From IMG/VR virus record IMGVR_UViG_3300006874_004912, positions 1-24,959 of that record: a stretch of 24,959 bases of DNA. One strand, written 5' to 3'. Under the pieces are notes generated by a model. That model saw only the letters and a program-made list of their open reading frames with translations. It was not told the DNA's origin and did no database searches. Position 1 is the stretch's first letter. Each line of letters opens with the position of its first letter. This DNA is from a virus. The translations under genes and the position numbers were made by a program. Positions 1-12,996 of this stretch are shown piece after piece.

Positions 1-483
1 AAAAATAGAAACAGTTCCACCGACTGAAGGAACTGCTAGAGATGTGGCACCAAGTCCACGTTGTATCTGAATGTTAGACGTAACGTCTGTCAGACCTTGC
101 CAGTTTGACCAATACACCCATCCGTTTTCCATATCATTGACTGGCTGTCCGTTAATAAGGAATGAAGTATTACGCTGATCAAATCCACGAAGTGAGATAC
201 GAGAATCTCCGTATCCTCCTCCTTGTTTTGTAGCATAAACCCCTGGTGTTTTGTTCATGATTTCAGGAAATTCTTGATTTCCTACTTTAAGCAAAACTTC
301 TTGAGCAGAAATAGTACTTACGGCAATCGGTGTCTCTCTTTCTTTTGCGACATCAATTACACGAGATGATACTACTACCTCTTCAAGATTTGTGGTAAGA
401 ATCGTTTTAGATTCTGTACCGGTTTCTTGAGCATAAGCTCCTACTGCTAAAAACATCAGCAGCATTGCAACGAGATTTCTCAT
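1..483 (-). CDS. TonB-dependent receptor, N-terminal part (cut by window edge)
   Basis: This is an outer-membrane gated-channel protein, and 161 residues are visible from the start codon to the window edge with no stop. Residues 1-18 form a signal peptide (MRNL followed by a hydrophobic stretch ending GAYA before QE). A TonB-box-like LEEVVVSS lies at 33-40. A plug domain follows from about 46, with IMNKTPGVYATKQGGG near 75-90, ISLRGFDQRNTSFLINGQP near 96-113, VYWSNW near 123-128 and IQRGLG near 140-145. These are the standard plug signatures, and VYWSNW is typical of Bacteroidetes receptors. There is no N-terminal carboxypeptidase-regulatory-like domain, which many Bacteroidetes SusC-type receptors carry, so it looks more like a siderophore- or vitamin-type receptor. 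It is the last visible gene of the leftward operon, 14 bases after a small membrane ORF. The beta-barrel lies outside the window, so substrate and intactness are unknown. A receptor gene in a phage operon is unusual. Confidence 0.9.
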   Translation of the reverse strand, partial: MRNLVAMLLMFLAVGAYAQETGTESKTILTTNLEEVVVSSRVIDVAKERETPIAVSTISAQEVLLKVGNQEFPEIMNKTPGVYATKQGGGYGDSRISLRGFDQRNTSFLINGQPVNDMENGWVYWSNWQGLTDVTSNIQIQRGLGATSLAVPSVGGTVSIF

Positions 484-497
484 TTAATTTAATTAAG

Positions 498-602
498 TTA
501 AACAATACATAACATTTCAGGACCTATCAGTAGTCCAATAGCGCCCATCGATAATATAGTTATAATTAACTTTATTACCAACAGATTTTTTAGATTTTTC
601 AT
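498..602 (-). CDS. Small 34-residue hydrophobic membrane peptide
   Basis: This is a short open frame in the otherwise empty space between the nuclease lipoprotein and the TonB-dependent receptor. It starts with ATG five bases after the nuclease stop codon and ends 14 bases before the receptor start. The product begins MKNLKNLLVIK and continues as one hydrophobic stretch (roughly residues 7-27) with a positively charged N-terminus, as expected for a single inner-membrane segment with the N-terminus inside. I recognise no family. The exact fit into the gap and the membrane-like composition support it, but no homologue could be checked. Confidence 0.4.
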   Translation of the reverse strand: MKNLKNLLVIKLIITILSMGAIGLLIGPEMLCIV

Positions 603-607
603 CACAG

Positions 608-1231
608 TTAGTGACTATGTTGTACTTGATATTCTTCCCAATCTCTGGTTGGGCGTTCATTAGGAAAGTCGTAACACTTGTATACATTAGAATTTGTAAA
701 TTTAATGTGTTTAATAAAACGTGAAGGAATAGTAGCTCCGGTAGGTAGAATAGAGTCTGAGAATTTTATATCTACTGTTACTTCTAATTCTTCTGCATCA
801 TCCCAAACTCTTTCTTCTTGCTCTAATAATCTCCATTCACCTCTATTGAGGTACTGATTTTGTAGAGCACAATTTAAGTATGAAAATGTTTGTTTAAGAT
901 TTTCTCTAGAGTCAGAAAATGTTGCAGCAGGTGCAATATGCCCTTTATCCCATACATTTCTATAATAGTCTTTATTATCTGAAGTATGATAATCATCTTC
1001 GGTATAAAAATTCATAGAACCTCTATCGACATTTTTAGGTCGATTAGAAGATTTGTATGTTAAGGTGATTGGTTGTTCTTTTGTCTCTGAATAAAGAACG
1101 GTAAAGATAGGTGTGGTTATTTCAATTTGTTCTCGGGGTTCTTGAGCTACGGTTATTTCCGGCTTAGAACAACTAGCAAGTAGAACTGCTAATAGAAAAC
1201 TAAATTTAGAGACCTTTAAATTCAAGTCCAT
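608..1231 (-). CDS. DNA/RNA non-specific endonuclease (NUC family), predicted lipoprotein
   Basis: This sugar-non-specific nuclease of the NucA/Serratia type cleaves DNA and RNA with a single divalent metal. The 207-residue protein has a lipoprotein signal: a hydrophobic stretch at 10-19 and a lipobox LLAS ahead of Cys21, so the mature protein should be anchored in a membrane facing the periplasm or cell surface. The catalytic DKGH motif is at 95-98 (His98). Asn120, Gln124, Asn129 and Glu137 have the spacing of the Serratia nuclease residues N110, Q114, N119 and E127, so the active site looks complete. The start was chosen because the signal peptide needs it; it overlaps the ferredoxin gene by 26 bases. 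The receptor and a small membrane peptide follow it. Likely roles are scavenging of nucleotides or destruction of competing nucleic acid at the infected cell surface; this is inference. Confidence 0.85.
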   Translation of the reverse strand: MDLNLKVSKFSFLLAVLLASCSKPEITVAQEPREQIEITTPIFTVLYSETKEQPITLTYKSSNRPKNVDRGSMNFYTEDDYHTSDNKDYYRNVWDKGHIAPAATFSDSRENLKQTFSYLNCALQNQYLNRGEWRLLEQEERVWDDAEELEVTVDIKFSDSILPTGATIPSRFIKHIKFTNSNVYKCYDFPNERPTRDWEEYQVQHSH

Positions 1232-1517
1232 AAAATTTATAGTTACGTTTTACGTATTCATCGGTGCCATCTTTCTCGATAGCATCCTCTTCACTCTCAT
1301 AAATAGCTTCGACTGGGCATTCCGGCAGACAAGCACCACAATCTATACACTCATCAGGGTTTATATAAAGCATATCTTTAGGTCCTATTTCCATACCTAC
1401 TACTTCTTGTCCGAGACCGTCTACTTGTATTGGGCCATTTATACAGTCTACAGGGCATACTGCAACACAGGCAGTATCGCAAGTTGATTCACAAGGGCTG
1501 CCTATTATATAGCTCAT
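1206..1517 (-). CDS. Dicluster ferredoxin (3Fe-4S/4Fe-4S or 2x4Fe-4S type)
   Basis: This is a small cytoplasmic electron carrier of 103 residues. The second cluster motif is classical, C57-x2-C60-x2-C63-x3-C67-P. The first half resembles seven-iron ferredoxins (C9-x7-C17-x3-C21-P, then Cys25), but an extra Cys13 gives C9-x3-C13-x3-C17-x3-C21, so the first site might hold a complete 4Fe-4S cluster. The acidic tail (about 74-87) and the ending YVKRNYKFYGLEFKGL resemble ferredoxins I recall from Bacteroidetes. Its start overlaps the stop of the preceding 84-aa gene as ATGA, so translation is probably coupled. Candidate partners in the window are the radical SAM enzymes QueE and the twitch-domain protein, both of which need low-potential electrons; the pairing is inference. 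Confidence 0.88.
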   Translation of the reverse strand: MSYIIGSPCESTCDTACVAVCPVDCINGPIQVDGLGQEVVGMEIGPKDMLYINPDECIDCGACLPECPVEAIYESEEDAIEKDGTDEYVKRNYKFYGLEFKGL

Positions 1518-1768
1518 TGTCCTATACTACTTACTCTTTTCATAAAAGTATTTAAAGCTTCTTTCTGAGTCATACCTTCTTTTATCATGTTTTCGACTTC
1601 CAAGGCACCCTCAAAATTAGACATAAGCTCCCCTATAACATCGAGTTCTTCGTCTTTTATCCCCCGAGCATCACATAAGTCTTCAAGAAGCTCTAAAGTT
1701 TCAACAACCCAGTCTTGGTCGTTCTCTTGAATAAAGTTAGAAACATGTTTAATTATTGGTAATCTCAT
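1514..1768 (-). CDS. DUF6952-like small protein
   Basis: This is an acidic, predicted all-helical cytoplasmic protein of 84 residues. It begins MRLPIIKHVSNFI and contains KDEELDVIGELMSNFEGALEV (about 38-58) and a C-terminal segment KEALNTFMKRV. From memory this matches DUF6952, a Bacteroidetes family encoded beside peroxiredoxin and thioredoxin genes in flavobacterial chromosomes, which is the neighbourhood here as well. Its function is unknown. It overlaps both neighbours by ATGA junctions, so it belongs to the peroxiredoxin-ferredoxin operon. The family name rests on recall and should be treated as probable; the link to redox stress comes only from context. Confidence 0.7.
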   Translation of the reverse strand: MRLPIIKHVSNFIQENDQDWVVETLELLEDLCDARGIKDEELDVIGELMSNFEGALEVENMIKEGMTQKEALNTFMKRVSSIGQ

Positions 1769-1977
1769 TCTGAAAAATATCTCTGGATGGTTTGTAATAC
1801 ATCGTCAGCCTCTGCTAGTGATGAGATAGCTTCTATTGCATTTTTATAAAAGTCCTCTGTTGAATGATCACCTATACCGGCTTTATCGTCGGTTAAGAGT
1901 TCAAGTGTTAAAAGTGCTTTTTCTCTTTCAGCTTCAAAATGCTTTTTAAGCATTGTTATTGTTCTATACTGTGCCAT
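1765..1977 (-). CDS. Small helical protein of unknown function (70 aa)
   Basis: I do not recognise this gene. The product is 70 residues, charged, soluble and likely two or three helices, with KKHFEAEREKALLTLELL near 11-28 and a conserved-looking GIGDHSTEDFYKNAIEAI near 34-51. It starts within a TAATG overlap with the peroxiredoxin stop and ends in an ATGA overlap with the DUF6952-like gene, so it is translated as part of that operon. In flavobacterial chromosomes I would expect a thioredoxin-like gene at this position; this protein has no CxxC and is not a thioredoxin. The gene itself is secure; no function can be given. Confidence 0.75.
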   Translation of the reverse strand: MAQYRTITMLKKHFEAEREKALLTLELLTDDKAGIGDHSTEDFYKNAIEAISSLAEADDVLQTIQRYFSE

Positions 1978-2612
1978 TATTTAGATAAATATTCTGCAAC
2001 TCCATCTCTAGTTGCATTCATTGCCTCTTTACCTTCCTCCCAGTTAGCAGGGCATACTTCTCCGTGTTTATCTACGTGAAGTTTAGCATCAATAAGTCTT
2101 AATAGTTCATCAATATTTCTTCCTAAAGGCATATCGTTAACTGATTCATGGAATACTCTACCGTCTCCGTCGATTAGATAAGTAGCTCTATAAGTTACAT
2201 TATCACCGTCTAAGATAACTTTATGTTCAATATCTGGGTTCTCTTCATCCCAGGAGTACTCAGTTTCATAATCTAAAATACCTAATTTTTTAGACAGTGT
2301 TCTTCTTGAATCTGCTAGTAATGGAAACTCTACTCCTTCGATACCTCCATCGTCTTTTGCGGTATTTAACCAAGCAAAATGAACTTCGGCTGTATCACAA
2401 GATGCTCCAAATACTTGAAAACCTCTATCGTTAAAATCTTTCAGTTTAGCCTGGAAAGCGTGTATTTCTGTTGGACATACGAAAGTAAAATCTTTCGGGT
2501 ACCAAAACAGAACCGTTGGTGTTTGTGGTGAGGATAAGTTAACGTTTAACTCATCGCCGTCTGCGTTAATAGCTTTTACGCTAATGTCTGGGAATTTGCT
2601 TCCTACTCTCAT
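1977..2612 (-). CDS. Typical 2-Cys peroxiredoxin (AhpC/TSA family)
   Basis: This protein reduces hydrogen peroxide, organic peroxides and peroxynitrite using thiol electrons. It has 211 residues, a normal length for the family. The peroxidatic Cys46 sits in DFTFVCPTEI (41-50) and the resolving Cys187 in EVCPANW, the layout of dimeric typical 2-Cys enzymes. The thioredoxin fold is complete (FWYPKD at 36-41). No signal peptide is present, so it acts in the cytoplasm. A reductant is available in the same window as the thioredoxin at 13343. It follows queE by 15 bases and leads the small-protein/ferredoxin run. The upstream stretch is A- and T-rich with no Shine-Dalgarno sequence. Phage-borne peroxiredoxin probably protects replication from oxidative stress in sunlit water; that role is inference. 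Confidence 0.93.
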   Translation of the reverse strand: MRVGSKFPDISVKAINADGDELNVNLSSPQTPTVLFWYPKDFTFVCPTEIHAFQAKLKDFNDRGFQVFGASCDTAEVHFAWLNTAKDDGGIEGVEFPLLADSRRTLSKKLGILDYETEYSWDEENPDIEHKVILDGDNVTYRATYLIDGDGRVFHESVNDMPLGRNIDELLRLIDAKLHVDKHGEVCPANWEEGKEAMNATRDGVAEYLSK

Positions 2613-2627
2613 TTCAATTTTTATTTA

Positions 2628-3404
2628 TTAAACTTCTCTTTGATCATTAAATGCCATAATATGTGCTCTACCGGTAAATCTATAGCCTTTATCTCTACAA
2701 AAATCCATAACAACTGGATAACTTTCAAATAATGCTTCTCTAGTATCACCAGCAGGCATCATCCAAACTTTTTCGTTTGGAATCTCCATTTCATTTAAAA
2801 ACTTCCATATCTCCCCATATATTGTTAAATTTTTATCTAATACAGGTTTAATATGATAGTCTTTATGATAGGCTATTGATTTTTTCATAGCCTCTTTATT
2901 TAATCTAAACTTATTATGCTGATCTACCATTCTTTGGTCCGTGATTCTACCTTCAGGGGTCGGAGTTCCGATAATAGGTATTGAATTCGAGAACTTAGGA
3001 GATATCGAGAGCAGATCAATAGGATAATCAGTTTCAAGAAAATGCGATCCTTCATTCTCCATAGTAATAAAAATACCTCTTTCATGTGCTAGATGTGTTA
3101 ATTCGTTAACTAATTTACCGTGCATAGAAGGTGAGCCTCCTGTTAACATCATTTCTGAGATATGAGGATTTTTATCGTACATATCTATAATGTCTTGAAA
3201 GCAATATTTACCTTTTTCTGGGTGTATAGAGGTATACCAACTATCACACCAGCCTCCTTCTCCAAAGTAGCATCTATGGGTACAACCGGTAGTACGTATA
3301 ACAATCGTCGGGTAACCTTGACGAGAACCTTCAGATTGAACTGCCGTATAAATCTCTACTATAGGTAGCTTTTTATTATAGTCTTCAATCCTGCCCAGGC
3401 TCAT
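2628..3404 (-). CDS. queE: 7-carboxy-7-deazaguanine synthase, radical SAM
   Basis: QueE converts 6-carboxy-tetrahydropterin to 7-carboxy-7-deazaguanine, the radical SAM step of the preQ0 pathway. The 258-residue protein begins with the substrate-side motif EIYTAVQSEGSRQGYP (17-32), then RTTGC. Cluster ligands are C41-x3-C45-x7-C53 followed by D-S; compared with the usual CX3CX2C there is a five-residue insertion before the third Cys. Other QueE proteins are known to carry insertions in this loop. LTGGSPSM at 87-94 replaces the usual GGEP by GGSP. The start overlaps the end of queD by 20 bases, tying the two steps together. It needs reduced ferredoxin or flavodoxin, and a ferredoxin lies four genes downstream. 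PreQ0 could feed DNA modification or queuosine; the gene deciding this is not in the window. Confidence 0.85.
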   Translation of the reverse strand: MSLGRIEDYNKKLPIVEIYTAVQSEGSRQGYPTIVIRTTGCTHRCYFGEGGWCDSWYTSIHPEKGKYCFQDIIDMYDKNPHISEMMLTGGSPSMHGKLVNELTHLAHERGIFITMENEGSHFLETDYPIDLLSISPKFSNSIPIIGTPTPEGRITDQRMVDQHNKFRLNKEAMKKSIAYHKDYHIKPVLDKNLTIYGEIWKFLNEMEIPNEKVWMMPAGDTREALFESYPVVMDFCRDKGYRFTGRAHIMAFNDQREV

Positions 3405-3858
3405 ATATAGCTGAATTTTTATCGTGTTCTCTAAATTCTACTTTTGCTATTCTAACTCTACCGTCAGTCTCTTGCATGATAAAAGGATTTACCTTTTCAT
3501 AAACAAATTGAGCAAATCTTTCTGCTCCTACAGCAGGTACAACTCTTAGACGTAAAAATCCTTGTTTATCAAGGTCTTTAAAAGTCTCTAAGGCGGGATC
3601 ATCAGAAGACATTACTACTGTATGATCAAACATATAATCAAACCAATCTTTAGGTTTCATACCATCAATAGTACCTTCAGCTCTTTTCATTCCGCCAAAG
3701 TCCCATACCCAGTTACGATTATCTAACTGTCCTTCAAACCAGAGTTTAATTGATACTCCGTACCCATGTAAATACTTACAATGAGTTGTATCTGCTCTCC
3801 ACTGTCTAAAACAAGTAGAAAATCCGTCAAATACCTTTGTTGATTGAAATTTTCCCAT
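3385..3858 (-). CDS. queD: QueD/6-pyruvoyl-tetrahydropterin synthase-like, divergent zinc site
   Basis: QueD makes 6-carboxy-tetrahydropterin from dihydroneopterin triphosphate. The 157-residue protein keeps the general family order: HCKYLHGYG at 26-34 (catalytic Cys27 by alignment with KCGRLHGH), WDFGGMK at 52-58, DHT at 78-80, the Glu of VGAERFA (110-116) and REHDKNSAIY at 143-152. Two of the three zinc histidines are not visible: the AAH position reads TCF (15-17) and the second His of HGH is Tyr33. His26 or Cys16 might substitute. I recall similar FRQW-containing proteins in marine phages, so this may be a subfamily, not a damaged gene. It directly precedes queE, which it overlaps, and its start overlaps the 90-aa gene stop by one base. 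Function by context is good; the chemistry is less certain. Confidence 0.78.
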   Translation of the reverse strand: MGKFQSTKVFDGFSTCFRQWRADTTHCKYLHGYGVSIKLWFEGQLDNRNWVWDFGGMKRAEGTIDGMKPKDWFDYMFDHTVVMSSDDPALETFKDLDKQGFLRLRVVPAVGAERFAQFVYEKVNPFIMQETDGRVRIAKVEFREHDKNSAIYEPGQD

Positions 3859-4241: not shown

Positions 4242-5354
4242 TTAAGGTAAAGCCGTTCCTAAGTTGATTGGGTACCAATTCACACCATCACAATATATAG
4301 GAGTACTTCCTGACACTGCAAACGTTCCAGCTGTAAGATCACTAGGTTTAGTACTAACTGGTGTAAGTGTTAATAAAGTTCTAACCTCTAACCTGGTAGA
4401 ATTTAATTGGGTAAATAGAGTGCTTTCGTCATTACTTCCTATTGTAATACTATCTGTCATCCAGTAGAACCCTGGTGATTTAGCGTGGAATTCAAACGAA
4501 TCAAAAGATAATCTGTTAGTAAGCTCATCTCCTGTAGGTTTAATACTTATTGAACCACTCACATCTATACTACCAGTAAGTTCCTGTTTACCTGTGAATA
4601 TACTTCCGGTAGTAAAGGCATATGAACTAGTTGCTCCAGTTAGTGTTACAATGTCTGCTGTATTTGCAGCAATATCAGTAGCAAGAGATGAGCTTAAACT
4701 TGCTGTTGCTGTTGCTAATTGAGCGTCTGTTGCATAAGTTGCATCGAGTGATGAGCTAAAAGATTCTAAGTCCGTTACTCTAGTACTAAATGAGCCACTA
4801 TCTGTTTGAAGAGCATCTATATCTGTTGCAATACTTGATGAAGCTGCAACAAAAGAACCACTAATATCATCTGCTATTTGAGCCGAGCTAGATAAAAGTG
4901 TGTTTCCTAATTCTGACTCTGCTACAGTTAATCTTGTTTCCACAGATGAACTAAACGAACCAGTAAGTGCTGCAATATCGGTTTCATTCGTAGTAACTCT
5001 AGTGCTAAAAGAGGCACTGTCTGCTTGTAGAGCATCAACATTATTTTCCTCTGTTGATAATCTTGTTTCTACAGAAGAACTAAACGAACCTGTTAATGCA
5101 GCTAGTGATGATGAAAGATTCGTAAACCCTGTTATTCCTACTGCACCTGTTACTGTTACATCTCCTGTAAATATATGGGTATCGTCAGCAGTATCTCCAA
5201 ATTGGGTACTTCCAGACTGAAATAAAGTTACAGATTGAGTAAGTTCTGTTCTTACTTCTTTAGCTATCAGTGTTTCAGATATTGTTAAAGAACCTGTAAG
5301 GTATACATTGTTACCTGATTGGGGTGCTATGTTTGTTACTTTTAATGTGCTCAT
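4242..5354 (-). CDS. Phage fibre/structural protein with Ser/Thr-rich repeats
   Basis: This is probably a trimeric virion fibre. The 370-residue protein starts with a short attachment-like region (MSTLKVTNIAPQSGNNV), followed by a module SGSTQFGDTADDTHIFTG at 47-64 that the upstream fibre gene shares. Residues about 80-240 are a low-complexity region of Ser, Thr, Ala and Asp with two near-identical units (ALTGSFSSSVETRL at 86-99 and 129-142) and a second pair (DALQxDSxSFSTRVT at 107-121 and 180-194). This is typical of extended trimeric coiled-coil or beta-helical shafts. The C-terminal part (about 280-370) is less repetitive and ends with CDGVNWYPINLGTALP, the kind of C-terminal closing segment I have seen on marine phage structural proteins. 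One base separates it from the upstream fibre gene, and a terminator follows. No adhesin fold or receptor can be assigned. Confidence 0.75.
   Translation of the reverse strand: MSTLKVTNIAPQSGNNVYLTGSLTISETLIAKEVRTELTQSVTLFQSGSTQFGDTADDTHIFTGDVTVTGAVGITGFTNLSSSLAALTGSFSSSVETRLSTEENNVDALQADSASFSTRVTTNETDIAALTGSFSSSVETRLTVAESELGNTLLSSSAQIADDISGSFVAASSSIATDIDALQTDSGSFSTRVTDLESFSSSLDATYATDAQLATATASLSSSLATDIAANTADIVTLTGATSSYAFTTGSIFTGKQELTGSIDVSGSISIKPTGDELTNRLSFDSFEFHAKSPGFYWMTDSITIGSNDESTLFTQLNSTRLEVRTLLTLTPVSTKPSDLTAGTFAVSGSTPIYCDGVNWYPINLGTALP
4773..5099 (-). repeat. Internal coding repeats in the fibre gene
   Basis: Two interleaved pairs of degenerate repeats lie inside the 370-residue fibre gene. 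Bases 5058-5099 and 4929-4970 both encode ALTGSFSSSVETRL. Bases 4992-5036 and 4773-4817 encode DALQxDSxSFSTRVT. The DNA copies differ at synonymous positions while the protein is nearly constant, so they are old duplications kept by selection on the protein, or units homogenised only in part. Confidence 0.7.
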
Positions 5355-5355
5355 C

Positions 5356-6297
5356 TTAAATGTCTGTTATTTCTAATTTTGCGTTTGCTGCGACTGTTAA
5401 TGTTTTACCTGCTGCAACTGTTATTGGTCCATACATTCTAGAGTTGTGATTAGCAGGAATTATACTGTTGTCATTTATGGTTGATGGGTTACTTGTAATT
5501 GATGCAAGTCCTCCGTACATGTAGATTTGATCTTGTTCTACTTCAAGTATATTATGTCTATCCGAATCAGATGTACCATTACCAATAACTTTAATTGCAG
5601 TACTACTGGTTACATTGTACTTACCTTCTACATGTTGGTAATTTGCCGAAGCTACTGTACCTATTCCTTCGGCATGTGATCCAATACCTGAAGCTAAAGT
5701 GTCTTCTCCTTCTGAATGTGCTTGAAACCCTGATGCTGTAGTTGCATAACCCTCTGCATGTGATCTATATCCGCTTGCTAATGTATCTCCTCCTTCGGCA
5801 TGTGCTCCTCCATCGCCAGAAGCATGTAAGTTTATACCTTGAGCAAATGATTCTGCACCGGAAGCAGTAACATTATTTCCAATAGCAACTGAAAATGTAC
5901 CTTGGGCTAAAGCAAAAGCACCCACAGCTAACGAACCAGACCCTCTTGCTTCTGATCTATTATTAAAAGTTCCGTTATCAACAACAAGAGAACCGGTCAC
6001 TAATGTACTACCGTAAAACTGATGGGTATCGTCTATACTATTACCAAACTGGGATGAACCAGATTCGTAAACAATTGATGATGATACTGTTGTGGCTATA
6101 AACTGTTGAGCTGTTACGTTTCCTAAAACTCTTAAGTTGTTGGAGATAACTGCACTCCCGGTATGGTAAAGGGAACCACTAATGTGTATATCCCCCAAAT
6201 CAGCAGACCCAGTACCATTTTGTACAACACCTGAAAGGTCGTGTTGTAAAACTCTTTGGTAGGTATTCTTTATTTGATTATTAGTAAAATCAGCCAT
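5356..6297 (-). CDS. Phage fibre/adhesin with YadA-like head repeats
   Basis: The 313-residue protein is likely a trimeric receptor-binding or fibre protein. The N-terminus (MADFTNNQIKNTYQRVLQHD) is followed by GSADLGDIHISGSLYHTGS and a module SGSSQFGNSIDDTHQFYG at 79-96, matching the module in the next gene. Residues about 118-230 carry head-type repeats of roughly 14 residues: SLAVGAFALAQGTFSVAIG, then several SHAEG/HSEG units each preceded by T-x-ASG. This pattern is known from YadA-type trimeric adhesin heads and phage tail proteins, which form left-handed beta-rolls. The end, YGPITVAAGKTLTVAANAKLEI, is a beta-repeat cap seen in marine phage fibres. It begins 27 bases after the 36-aa ORF of the modification island and is separated from the second fibre gene by one base. 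Confidence 0.8.
   Translation of the reverse strand: MADFTNNQIKNTYQRVLQHDLSGVVQNGTGSADLGDIHISGSLYHTGSAVISNNLRVLGNVTAQQFIATTVSSSIVYESGSSQFGNSIDDTHQFYGSTLVTGSLVVDNGTFNNRSEARGSGSLAVGAFALAQGTFSVAIGNNVTASGAESFAQGINLHASGDGGAHAEGGDTLASGYRSHAEGYATTASGFQAHSEGEDTLASGIGSHAEGIGTVASANYQHVEGKYNVTSSTAIKVIGNGTSDSDRHNILEVEQDQIYMYGGLASITSNPSTINDNSIIPANHNSRMYGPITVAAGKTLTVAANAKLEITDI
5608..5946 (-). repeat. YadA-head-like coding repeat block
   Basis: Residues 118-230 of the 313-residue fibre are built of degenerate units ending in A-E-G or A-x-G (FAQG, AHAEG, SHAEG, AHSEG, SHAEG, QHVEG), with ASG between them. The DNA shows matching degenerate copies of the reverse complement of the SHAEG codons. Unit number could change by recombination and shift fibre length. 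Confidence 0.7.
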
Positions 6298-6324: not shown

Positions 6325-6435
6325 TTAGAAATTCTTATAATTAAAAGGATCTCTTTTTTTGAGTTCAGCGATTTTTCTTTTGTATTCCTGTTTTTTTCTC
6401 CACTTGTTAATTTGGAGTTTTATCCATTTTATCAT
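6325..6435 (-). CDS. Small basic protein (36 aa) coupled to carbamoyltransferase
   Basis: This is a short open frame whose ATG overlaps the carbamoyltransferase stop as ATGA, strong evidence of coupled translation. It fills the gap before the fibre genes. The product is highly basic, MIKWIKLQINKWRKKQEYK at the start and KKRDPFNYKNF at the end, and is likely one amphipathic helix with a short tail. The ending KKRDPF-Y resembles small conserved proteins I recall from marine T4-like phages, but I cannot name a family. The function is unknown. Confidence 0.6.
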   Translation of the reverse strand: MIKWIKLQINKWRKKQEYKRKIAELKKRDPFNYKNF

Positions 6436-8072
6436 GTTTTTTTTATTAAAAAATTATTAATTACTAAAAAGTCTATATCTGAATTTATAAATCGTTCGAT
6501 TGCTTGTTTTGGGTCTATGGTTATAGTTTGATCCTTTAGGTTAAATGAGGTATTGAGTAATACCGGAACTTTAGTTATTCTACCAACTTCCTCTAGAAGC
6601 CTGTAATATTTTTCATTTTGGAGTTTAGTAACTGTCTGCACTCTACATGTACCGTCTATATGTGTAGCAGCAGGTAAGAAATTCACTTTAGCTTTTACAA
6701 CTTGATTCATATGTGGCACCGGTTCGTTAATGTGAAAAAATGTATTGGCTTCATCTTGTAAAACCGATGGTGCAAATGGTCTAAAACCTTCTCTTTTTTT
6801 AATTACGTAATTGAGCTTTTCTCTCATATTAGCTCTCATTGGTGAAGCTAAAATAGAACGGTTACCAAGAGCTCTTGCTCCAAATTCCATTTTACCTTGG
6901 AACCATGCTACAATATTTTGTGCAGCAAGCAATTCCGCAACTTTACTTATTATTTTATCCTCAGATAGTTGAAATGACCAAACTTTATCTTTATAATGCT
7001 TAAGAACATTTCTGACCTGTACATCTGTAAAACTGGGTCCTAAATACGGTGAGGGATTAGAGTGTCCATCAAGACAAGCTCCTATTGCCGACCCTGCATC
7101 CGACGGTGCAAATGGTATGTGAACAGATTTAAAATATTTATATGCTAAAGAATTAGCGACCCCATTGTAAGCGCATCCGCCTCCTAAGCATAAATTTTCC
7201 GACCCTGTAAGCTCTTTCGCTTTTTTTATTAATTTTAAAAACTCCTGTTCGTATAGCTTCTGTAATGCTGCGGCTAAATTCTTGTGTTCCTGCTTCAGCG
7301 TATCTTCTGGAAGACGAGGAGGTAATTCTAGTAAATGACATAATTTTTTTGTGAACATTATTTGCTGAGAATATTCCCATGCAAAGTACTTTTGATATAA
7401 ATATAAATTAGGGTTTTTCTTATCTAAGAGTTCCTGTAGTTTTCCTAAATATTTACTAGGATCACCGTAAGGGGCAAGTCCCATTACTTTATACTCACCT
7501 TCATTGGGTCGAAAACCTAAATATGCTGTGATTGTTGAGTACAACATACCTAAAGAGTGAGGAAAATCTACTGAATATAGTTTTTTTATTTTGTTATCTT
7601 TACCTTTTGAGATTGTTATGGTCTCCCATTCTCCTACTCCGTCTACTGTTAGTATTGCTGCATCACGGTATGGAGAAGTAAAGTAAGAGAAAGCAGAATG
7701 AGAATAATGATGATCGTGGTATATAATTTTTCCGGTGTACCCAATACTTTTAAGTAAAGCTTCCGGAGAGTTATTTTTTCTGTCTTTATTATACCTCTGT
7801 CGAAGAAAAAAAGTTTTAAACGGTCTTTTATTGAAGATAGTCTTAACTCTATCGTCTTTTGTAATCGGGTTTTCATACCAATGAACTTCTTGTACATCGG
7901 ATATTTTTGTTACTGTTGAATGTAGTATCCATTTTATGGCATTTATAGGAAAACTGCTGTCGTGTTTAACACCGGTAAATCTTTCTTCTTCAGCTGCTGC
8001 TATAACAGTGTTACCGTTTATAATACAAGCGGCAGAGTCGTGATAGAATGCTGAAATACCGAGTTTAATCAT
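6432..8072 (-). CDS. Carbamoyltransferase, NodU/CmcH/TobZ family
   Basis: Enzymes of this family make carbamoyl-adenylate from carbamoyl phosphate and ATP and pass the carbamoyl group to a hydroxyl of a sugar, antibiotic or nucleobase derivative. At 546 residues it is full length. The N-terminal Kae1-like domain has GISAFYHDSAACI (5-17) and AAAEEERFTGVKHD (25-38), with HDHHYSHSAF at 119-128 and VDGVGEW at 143-149. GEYKVMGLAPYG lies near 192-203 and LGGGCAYNG near residue 300. The C-terminal domain has FQGKMEFGARALGNRSILA and EGFRPFAPSV. The gene overlaps DUF2061 upstream and a 36-aa ORF downstream. Work on phage metagenomes has tied enzymes of this class to 5-carbamoyloxymethyl-cytosine in DNA; here the nearby kinase, oxygenase and glycosyltransferase genes also allow a carbamoylated sugar. 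The substrate is not decidable from sequence. Confidence 0.92.
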   Translation of the reverse strand: MIKLGISAFYHDSAACIINGNTVIAAAEEERFTGVKHDSSFPINAIKWILHSTVTKISDVQEVHWYENPITKDDRVKTIFNKRPFKTFFLRQRYNKDRKNNSPEALLKSIGYTGKIIYHDHHYSHSAFSYFTSPYRDAAILTVDGVGEWETITISKGKDNKIKKLYSVDFPHSLGMLYSTITAYLGFRPNEGEYKVMGLAPYGDPSKYLGKLQELLDKKNPNLYLYQKYFAWEYSQQIMFTKKLCHLLELPPRLPEDTLKQEHKNLAAALQKLYEQEFLKLIKKAKELTGSENLCLGGGCAYNGVANSLAYKYFKSVHIPFAPSDAGSAIGACLDGHSNPSPYLGPSFTDVQVRNVLKHYKDKVWSFQLSEDKIISKVAELLAAQNIVAWFQGKMEFGARALGNRSILASPMRANMREKLNYVIKKREGFRPFAPSVLQDEANTFFHINEPVPHMNQVVKAKVNFLPAATHIDGTCRVQTVTKLQNEKYYRLLEEVGRITKVPVLLNTSFNLKDQTITIDPKQAIERFINSDIDFLVINNFLIKKT

Positions 8073-12201: not shown

Positions 12202-12996
12202 TTAAGCTGCATGTTCTGCTAAAAGCTTTTCTACATGTGCTTTCGCAACAGCATATTCAACCGGTCCAGTTTCGTCCTCATATTGTACAGGGTCGTCCAC
12301 ACCAAGGTTGATAAATGCTTCAATCCTTTCAACAGATGATGCTGATTTGTAATCGCTATTGCCGCTAGGATAGGGCTTGTAAGAAGTATTAGTACGTTTG
12401 TACACTTCATTAAACTCAATTCCGAGCTCTCTAACCAATTCTTGTCCATCTTTTAAAATTCCTAATTTATCAGTATTTAGGTAAGGAGTAAAGTATCCTA
12501 CTTTCTCTGCTTCCCAGTTACCGATTCTAAAAGCTGCATCGTCAGCATCTCTAAACTCTTGTCTACAGTCTGGATAGATTGCATGATCTCCAGCATGAAT
12601 ACCTAATGCTATATCTGTATTTAAACTGTTAGCATTAGCTTCTGATAGAGCAACTGCTTGAACTAAAGAAGCAAATATTTTGTTTCTATTAGGTACTACA
12701 GTAGCTTTCATGTTATCCTCTTCATAATGACCTTCTGGTACATCATCGCCTCCAGTAACTAAAGCTGAATTTAGTAGATTAACTAATCCGTCTAATTTAA
12801 TAACTTGATATTTAATACTCTGTCCATTAGCATTTAAGTAGTCTACTAATGATTGAGCTCTTTCAAGCTCTACTCTATGCTTTTGACCATAATCAAAAGA
12901 TATCGCAGTCACGTTATCATATTCTGATAAACATCTTAATAGTAAAGTTGAGGAGTCCATCCCTCCTGAAAGACTAATAACAACATTTTTTGCCAT
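12202..12996 (-). CDS. queC: 7-cyano-7-deazaguanine (preQ0) synthase-like, zinc cysteines replaced
   Basis: QueC converts 7-carboxy-7-deazaguanine and ammonia to preQ0 using ATP. The 264-residue protein has the PP-loop SGGMDSST at 10-17, FDYGQKHRVEL at 34-44 and VPNRN near 101-105, and YPDCRQEF near 141-148, all family hallmarks. The normal zinc module TxTC-x(n)-CxxCxxCVER is recognisable as TNTSY at 202-206 and DYKSASSVERIEAF at 215-228, but the four cysteines are Ser205, Asp215, Ser218 and Ser221. The fold and ATP site look intact, so the enzyme may work without zinc. The gene stands apart from queD and queE, 8 kb away. A weak hairpin precedes it, and its leader is A+T-rich without a Shine-Dalgarno sequence. 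Confidence 0.88.
   Translation of the reverse strand: MAKNVVISLSGGMDSSTLLLRCLSEYDNVTAISFDYGQKHRVELERAQSLVDYLNANGQSIKYQVIKLDGLVNLLNSALVTGGDDVPEGHYEEDNMKATVVPNRNKIFASLVQAVALSEANANSLNTDIALGIHAGDHAIYPDCRQEFRDADDAAFRIGNWEAEKVGYFTPYLNTDKLGILKDGQELVRELGIEFNEVYKRTNTSYKPYPSGNSDYKSASSVERIEAFINLGVDDPVQYEDETGPVEYAVAKAHVEKLLAEHAA

Follow-up and report, generated by a model that had tools for sequence, protein, structure and literature searches.

Phage-encoded TonB-dependent receptors

It is commonly assumed that phages build their genomes from the contents of their own hosts, and auxiliary genes of the cyanophage psbA type illustrate how a host core gene is retained by phages after being acquired from hosts more than once. 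TonB-dependent receptors (TBDRs) have barely been reported from phages before. The closest described system is the SusC-like TBDR of the marine megaphage Mar_Mega_1 and its relatives, which has been proposed as an auxiliary uptake gene (PMC9723777). The present work concerns a TBDR gene that begins within positions 1-483 (minus strand) of the viral record IMGVR_UViG_3300006874_004912; the record was analysed at its full length of 24,959 bases and is hereafter called the window. The novelty lies in a host-derived family of phage uptake receptors with repeated capture, a common leader and a pairing with nucleases.

The Mar_Mega_1 SusC protein and the receptor of the window are both marine-phage TBDRs proposed to serve in uptake, but the former belongs to a different phage group, and the available part of its description reports neither repeated capture nor a leader nor nuclease pairing (PMC9723777). 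The top viral fold match of the receptor is the BFVD entry ‘TonB-dependent receptor SusC, uncultured marine phage’ (A0A8D9FQQ5, 13% identity), which is probably this Mar_Mega_1 protein, and megaphage LR745206 matches at 33%. The PHROG family phrog_5687 (760 positions, annotated ‘unknown function’) matches the receptor at E 8e-19, distantly and in separate partial matches only, and hence TBDR-like proteins are already present in phage libraries. The GenBank phage collection held only seven matching records, all below 60% identity and unannotated. Marine T4-like phages of Bacteroidetes that carry queuosine genes have been described in a text that does not mention TonB (PMC7198788). Searches of the open-licence literature found nothing on this receptor family, on its repeated capture or on the leader or the nuclease pairing, and nothing closer than the megaphage study (PMC9723777).

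The receptor gene and its place in T4-like phages

The window holds the 5' part of the gene (161 of 824 residues, with an ATG start), which is cut by the contig end and not by a frameshift, because the window is the entire viral record. The N-terminus, read directly from the sequence, is hydrophobic and signal-peptide-like. It is followed by a TonB-box-like segment, EEVVVSSR at residues 34-41 (361..384, minus strand; also given as LEEVVVSS, residues 33-40), which is conserved across phages and hosts, and by a Plug domain (PF07715, residues 48-156; 16..342, minus strand; E 6e-14). The receptor starts 125 nt past a nuclease open reading frame (ORF) and shares its strand. These parts and this spacing had been recognised in the original prediction, made from the letters of the window, which also placed the barrel outside it. 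The barrel is supplied by L002, a viral contig of 31 kb that overlaps window positions 1-3034 with no mismatch over 3,034 bp and spans the receptor join; the two contigs may derive from one population. Leftward extension, the check then proposed, yields a complete receptor of 824 residues with Plug and TonB_dep_Rec_b-barrel domains (Pfam) and no frameshift. Full-length forms among the relatives have either 824-848 residues without, or about 900 residues with, an N-terminal CarboxypepD-reg domain. The receptor had been thought to end an operon; on L002, same-strand genes run on past it, encoding an S1/P1 nuclease, a 72-aa membrane protein, an AAA_28 protein, a phosphoribosyltransferase and GTP cyclohydrolase I.

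Scanning IMG/VR with the 161 window residues yielded 432 relatives, of which the best 80, mostly complete genes, served as the viral loci. The receptor gene recurs across many metagenomes, in dozens of viral contigs and in at least two gene orders. In that of the window it comes after a QueD-QueE-ferredoxin-Endonuclease_NS run; in the other, also common, it stands directly behind the ribonucleotide reductase (RNR) genes, as seen in many phages. The neighbours are T4-like in many contigs and include DNA polymerase, gp32, UvsX, DnaB, RNR, Que genes and the clamp loader. Each of the 20 whole viral records (31-276 kb) carries exactly one full receptor copy with no internal stop. Across nine phages in the window clade, the ratio of nonsynonymous to synonymous substitution rates (dN/dS) is mostly 0.05-0.12, with 0.28 for one near-identical pair, and the receptor is under purifying selection. 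It lies among viral genes, is host-derived by phylogeny and is kept functional by selection, as is expected of an auxiliary metabolic gene. The T4-like context, the completeness and the selection bear out the earlier view that the TBDR is phage-encoded, and it is nearly certain that a true phage gene begins within positions 1-483 of the window.

Repeated transfer between marine Bacteroidota and phages

Scanning of bacterial genomes revealed chromosomal relatives in marine Flavobacteriaceae, other Bacteroidota and Balneolota, at full length and with up to 76% identity. The receptor follows phosphoglucose isomerase (PGI) in 41 of 80 host loci, together with M23 peptidase and DUF3108 genes, which represents a stable chromosomal setting. 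This PGI-linked TBDR of marine Flavobacteriaceae and their relatives is orthologous to the phage receptor and has the same domains at about 76% identity at most, but differs in these flanking genes and in being without the leader of the phage copies. The CarboxypepD-reg domain occurs in many of the host copies and in some from phages, whereas the window clade is without it.

Repeated host capture, the common leader and the downstream nuclease were all beyond the view of the original prediction. The phage search and the tree with host receptors that it suggested have now been carried out. When 54 phage and 76 host proteins are placed in one tree, the two labels interleave, the phage copies are nested within chromosomal receptors of marine Bacteroidota, and the supported branches require at least six changes. 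Two phage receptors cluster with a Balneolaceae sequence and the others with flavobacterial sequences. In a tree of 47 rows, a single phage clade costs 497 log-likelihood units and is rejected (p-AU 2e-60); hence, the orthogroup has passed between hosts and phages on several occasions. The host-to-phage direction is suggested because the host copies show chromosomal PGI synteny, and some transfer in reverse is possible. The likeness to cyanophage psbA lies in repeated host capture, whereas psbA encodes a photosystem protein and the phage TBDR an outer-membrane transporter.

A leader common to the phage receptor genes

A GTTATGTATTGTTTAAC-type motif lies upstream of the receptor start in the window (497..516, minus strand) and is common to the phage receptor genes. 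It takes the form GGTTATGTATTGTTTAA or GGTTATGTTTAATTTAA about 20-50 nt ahead of the start, and was seen upstream of receptors in loci L002-L081. For two strict patterns, 27 of 27 matches in 1.17 Mb of receptor-bearing phage loci sit before the receptor, a first count that is partly circular, as the motif was spotted by eye in the same sequences. One strict pattern gave seven matches in 2.2 Mb of phage loci picked by QueE or RNR, all in receptor-bearing loci, six of the seven contigs belonging also to the first receptor-locus set. The strict leader matched twice in 1.5 Mb of host receptor loci, both times on the opposite strand and never upstream of a receptor. Relaxing the pattern places the motif before 42 of 77 phage receptors and before 8 of 1,171 other genes. 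The leader is a phage trait, retained while the receptor body, its descent and its gene surroundings change. It may act as a promoter, a translation signal or a recombination site; a promoter scan gave no excess over shuffled sequences.

Linkage to secreted nucleases

In marine sediments, Bacteroidota have been reported to be prevalent among the carriers of extracellular nucleases (PMC8289736). On L002 the receptor is followed by an S1/P1 nuclease (PF02265, E 2e-60), and such a gene lies within 2 kb downstream of the receptor in 21 of the 80 viral loci and nowhere else in those loci. The pairing spans both gene orders and both receptor forms. Among the whole viral records, all five S1/P1 genes lie within about 400 nt of the receptor. 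A direct scan with the S1/P1 protein found 18 viral loci, of which one is distant; those that are close have the receptor nearby, apart from L171, which ends before the receptor region, and one clear exception, L176. The residues that bind zinc in known S1/P1 nucleases are unchanged in 17 phage copies.

The second nuclease is encoded in the window itself (608..1231, minus strand). It is a secreted DNA/RNA non-specific endonuclease (Endonuclease_NS, PF01223) with a lipobox, LASC, and an active-site-like DKGH motif, as read from Pfam and the sequence, and most phage copies have the lipobox together with DKGH or DRGH. Of 13 records with Endonuclease_NS, eight carry it within 1 kb of the receptor, which it often precedes. 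This link is weaker than that of S1/P1 because the gene is present also in related phages without the receptor.

Among the hosts, a chromosome of Ca. Arcticimaribacter (L086:3-6121, L085) carries the receptor, S1/P1 and a divergent Na+/nucleoside transporter, with Endonuclease_NS nearby, and constitutes a candidate nucleic-acid utilisation locus. Adjacency of TBDR and S1/P1 was rejected as a general host rule, since Arcticimaribacter alone shows it. About 9 of the 41 PGI-linked host loci have a secreted Exo_endo_phos_3 gene close by. In L104:12558-18375 and similar host loci the receptor is followed by a secreted Exo_endo_phos_3 phosphodiesterase, a second TBDR-like protein and a DUF5689 protein.

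Other neighbours recur as well. The AAA_28 nucleotide-binding protein (GGPGIGKS; L002:6078-6641 and 44 other loci) is found downstream of phage receptors more constantly than any other neighbour, and a membrane protein of 72-79 aa that matches no known family (L002:5893-6111 and relatives) recurs beside the receptor and S1/P1 pair. A single ORF of 449 aa (L049:4916-6265) joins the secreted S1/P1 nuclease to the AAA_28 protein that lies behind it in other phages, either as a fusion or through a sequence error.

Predicted structure and conservation

The AF2 model of the receptor (pLDDT 84.7, pTM 0.84) has the plug within a barrel counted as 22 strands, a prediction in line with the Pfam barrel match and with the closest solved folds found by Foldseek, namely PqqU, FhuA and FecA. 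It superseded a first model, built from phage sequences alone, in which the plug came out unfolded. The fold matches are generic (12-15% identity) and name no ligand; assignment of a ligand by Foldseek was dropped, as the matches were scattered across iron, copper and PQQ transporters. A PDB search with a phage-only profile gave no match at 1e-5, and one with a profile including hosts gave generic TBDR matches alone and no substrate.

Mean column entropy among the phages is lowest in the plug (0.20), stands at 0.66 in the extracellular loops and 0.68 in the strands, and is 0.70 in the TonB box as against 2.49 in the neighbouring linker. Retention of the loops and the plug fits a transporter with a fixed ligand, whereas a decoy or an escape variant would be expected to diversify its loops. 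The SusC/RagA family TIGR04056 leaves the L002 receptor unmatched and scores the relatives of about 900 aa at 81-97 bits against a cut-off of 368, at the N-terminus only. No SusD gene was recognised adjoining the receptor, no profile search aimed at SusD having been made.

Proposed function and alternatives

The completed receptor is quite probably an active importer. Given an importer, the gene neighbourhood somewhat favours a nucleic-acid-derived ligand. Nucleic-acid fragments are the best guess because of the flanking nucleases, the nucleoside transporter beside a host copy and the frequent placement behind RNR. That the gene serves uptake in an auxiliary role, so that infected cells continue to take in a conserved ligand, most probably such fragments, may be put at even chances.

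Expression, transport activity and ligand are what we infer beyond the computed features. Marine T4-like phages of Bacteroidota would have captured the host receptor several times and would express it from the common phage leader, so sustaining outer-membrane import of one conserved ligand while host expression is off. Phage-secreted Endonuclease_NS and S1/P1 would release oligonucleotides, nucleotides or nucleosides, and hence phosphorus, by extracellular or periplasmic digestion. The products would enter via the receptor, energised by the host TonB-ExbBD, and feed the phage RNR and other nucleotide genes. A full scavenging module, in which the captured transporter and the secreted nucleases digest extracellular DNA or RNA, including that of lysed neighbours, and import the pieces for phage genomes, is a more tentative proposal, falling a little short of even.

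Several observations weigh against uptake of nucleic-acid fragments. The main weakness is that most host receptors adjoin PGI and not nucleases; S1/P1 is present in most host genomes and adjoins the receptor in Arcticimaribacter only. In the phages, many loci with a receptor of about 900 aa are without S1/P1, and the occurrence of Endonuclease_NS in receptor-free relatives makes it non-specific. Only a minority of the wider phage group, 8 of 62 QueE-centred loci, carries the receptor, and kinship among the phages reduces the effective number of independent receptor-nuclease linkages. No phage inner-membrane nucleoside transporter was found. SNase, encoded upstream of the receptor in some phages, shows no obvious signal peptide and is common also in phages without the receptor; for both reasons it was dropped as a secreted partner.

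The strongest alternative, though unlikely, is that the receptor imports iron (as siderophore or heme), cobalamin or another cofactor for phage iron-sulfur, radical SAM and RNR enzymes. It draws on neighbours such as ferredoxin, QueE, peroxiredoxin and a class I-like RNR, on FhuA, FecA and PqqU being among the closest folds, and on sub-threshold NCBIfam likeness to siderophore, heme and B12 receptors. These scores, however, fall far below cut-off and are divided among the three substrates (e.g., 79 bits versus 324; BtuB-type TIGR01779, 46.6 versus 599.7), no NCBIfam equivalog exceeds its cut-off, and the fold matches are generic. No cobalamin or thiamine pyrophosphate riboswitch was found in the six host loci searched, an Rfam riboswitch search gave nothing relevant, and the receptor's specific partner downstream encodes a nuclease rather than an iron or vitamin function. 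Import during infection, as first suggested, fits in its general form, while its iron or vitamin version is unsupported.

A still less probable reading is that the receptor remodels the surface, by blocking, replacing or decoying a phage receptor (superinfection exclusion) or by replacing a transporter used by other phages. TBDRs such as FhuA do serve as phage receptors, T5 Llp blocks FhuA (8a60 and 8b14, among the fold matches), and secreted nucleases could degrade incoming DNA in the periplasm. Yet the plug is the most conserved region, the TonB box is retained, the loops are conserved like the strands, contrary to the expected diversification, and one orthogroup was captured repeatedly; a functional receptor would expose the cell, not protect it. 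The decoy function raised in the original prediction is not borne out by this conservation. Host contamination, a chimeric contig end or a truncated passenger gene, to which the ORF stopping at the contig edge and the bacterial close homologues might have pointed, is excluded in practice as a negligible prospect, given the mismatch-free join on L002, synteny recurring in contigs from other metagenomes, intact copies in all 20 records and the low dN/dS. Separately, a SusC-like protein is reported to affect transformation (PMC8459023); a natural-transformation role for TBDRs was considered on this account and not adopted.

A conserved and repeatedly captured importer would mean that certain phages control what infected cells take in. 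It also offers a testable way in which phages could drive the use of dissolved marine DNA and phosphorus, and points to a host receptor orthogroup whose ligand deserves solving. The scavenging module, if true, would amount to phage-directed uptake of external nucleic-acid nutrients via a TonB-dependent gate.

Other genes of the window

The genes before the receptor and Endonuclease_NS share the minus strand. They encode, by Pfam, a 4Fe-4S ferredoxin (1206..1517), a DUF6952 protein (1514..1768) and an AhpC/TSA peroxiredoxin (1977..2612), followed by a QueE-like radical SAM enzyme (2628..3404; phrog_2076) and a QueD-like 6-pyruvoyl tetrahydropterin synthase (3385..3858; Pfam). QueE and QueD are thus recognised by profile (2628-3858) and a QueC-like ORF by sequence (12202-12996); the Que genes plausibly represent a 7-deazaguanine route for DNA modification or queuosine. 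Two adjoining Ser/Thr/Gly-rich repetitive proteins, probably tail-fibre-like, occupy 4242-6297 between the Que genes and a Nol-like carbamoyltransferase (6432-8072; phrog_1601, E 2e-115), which is probably a base- or sugar-modification enzyme.
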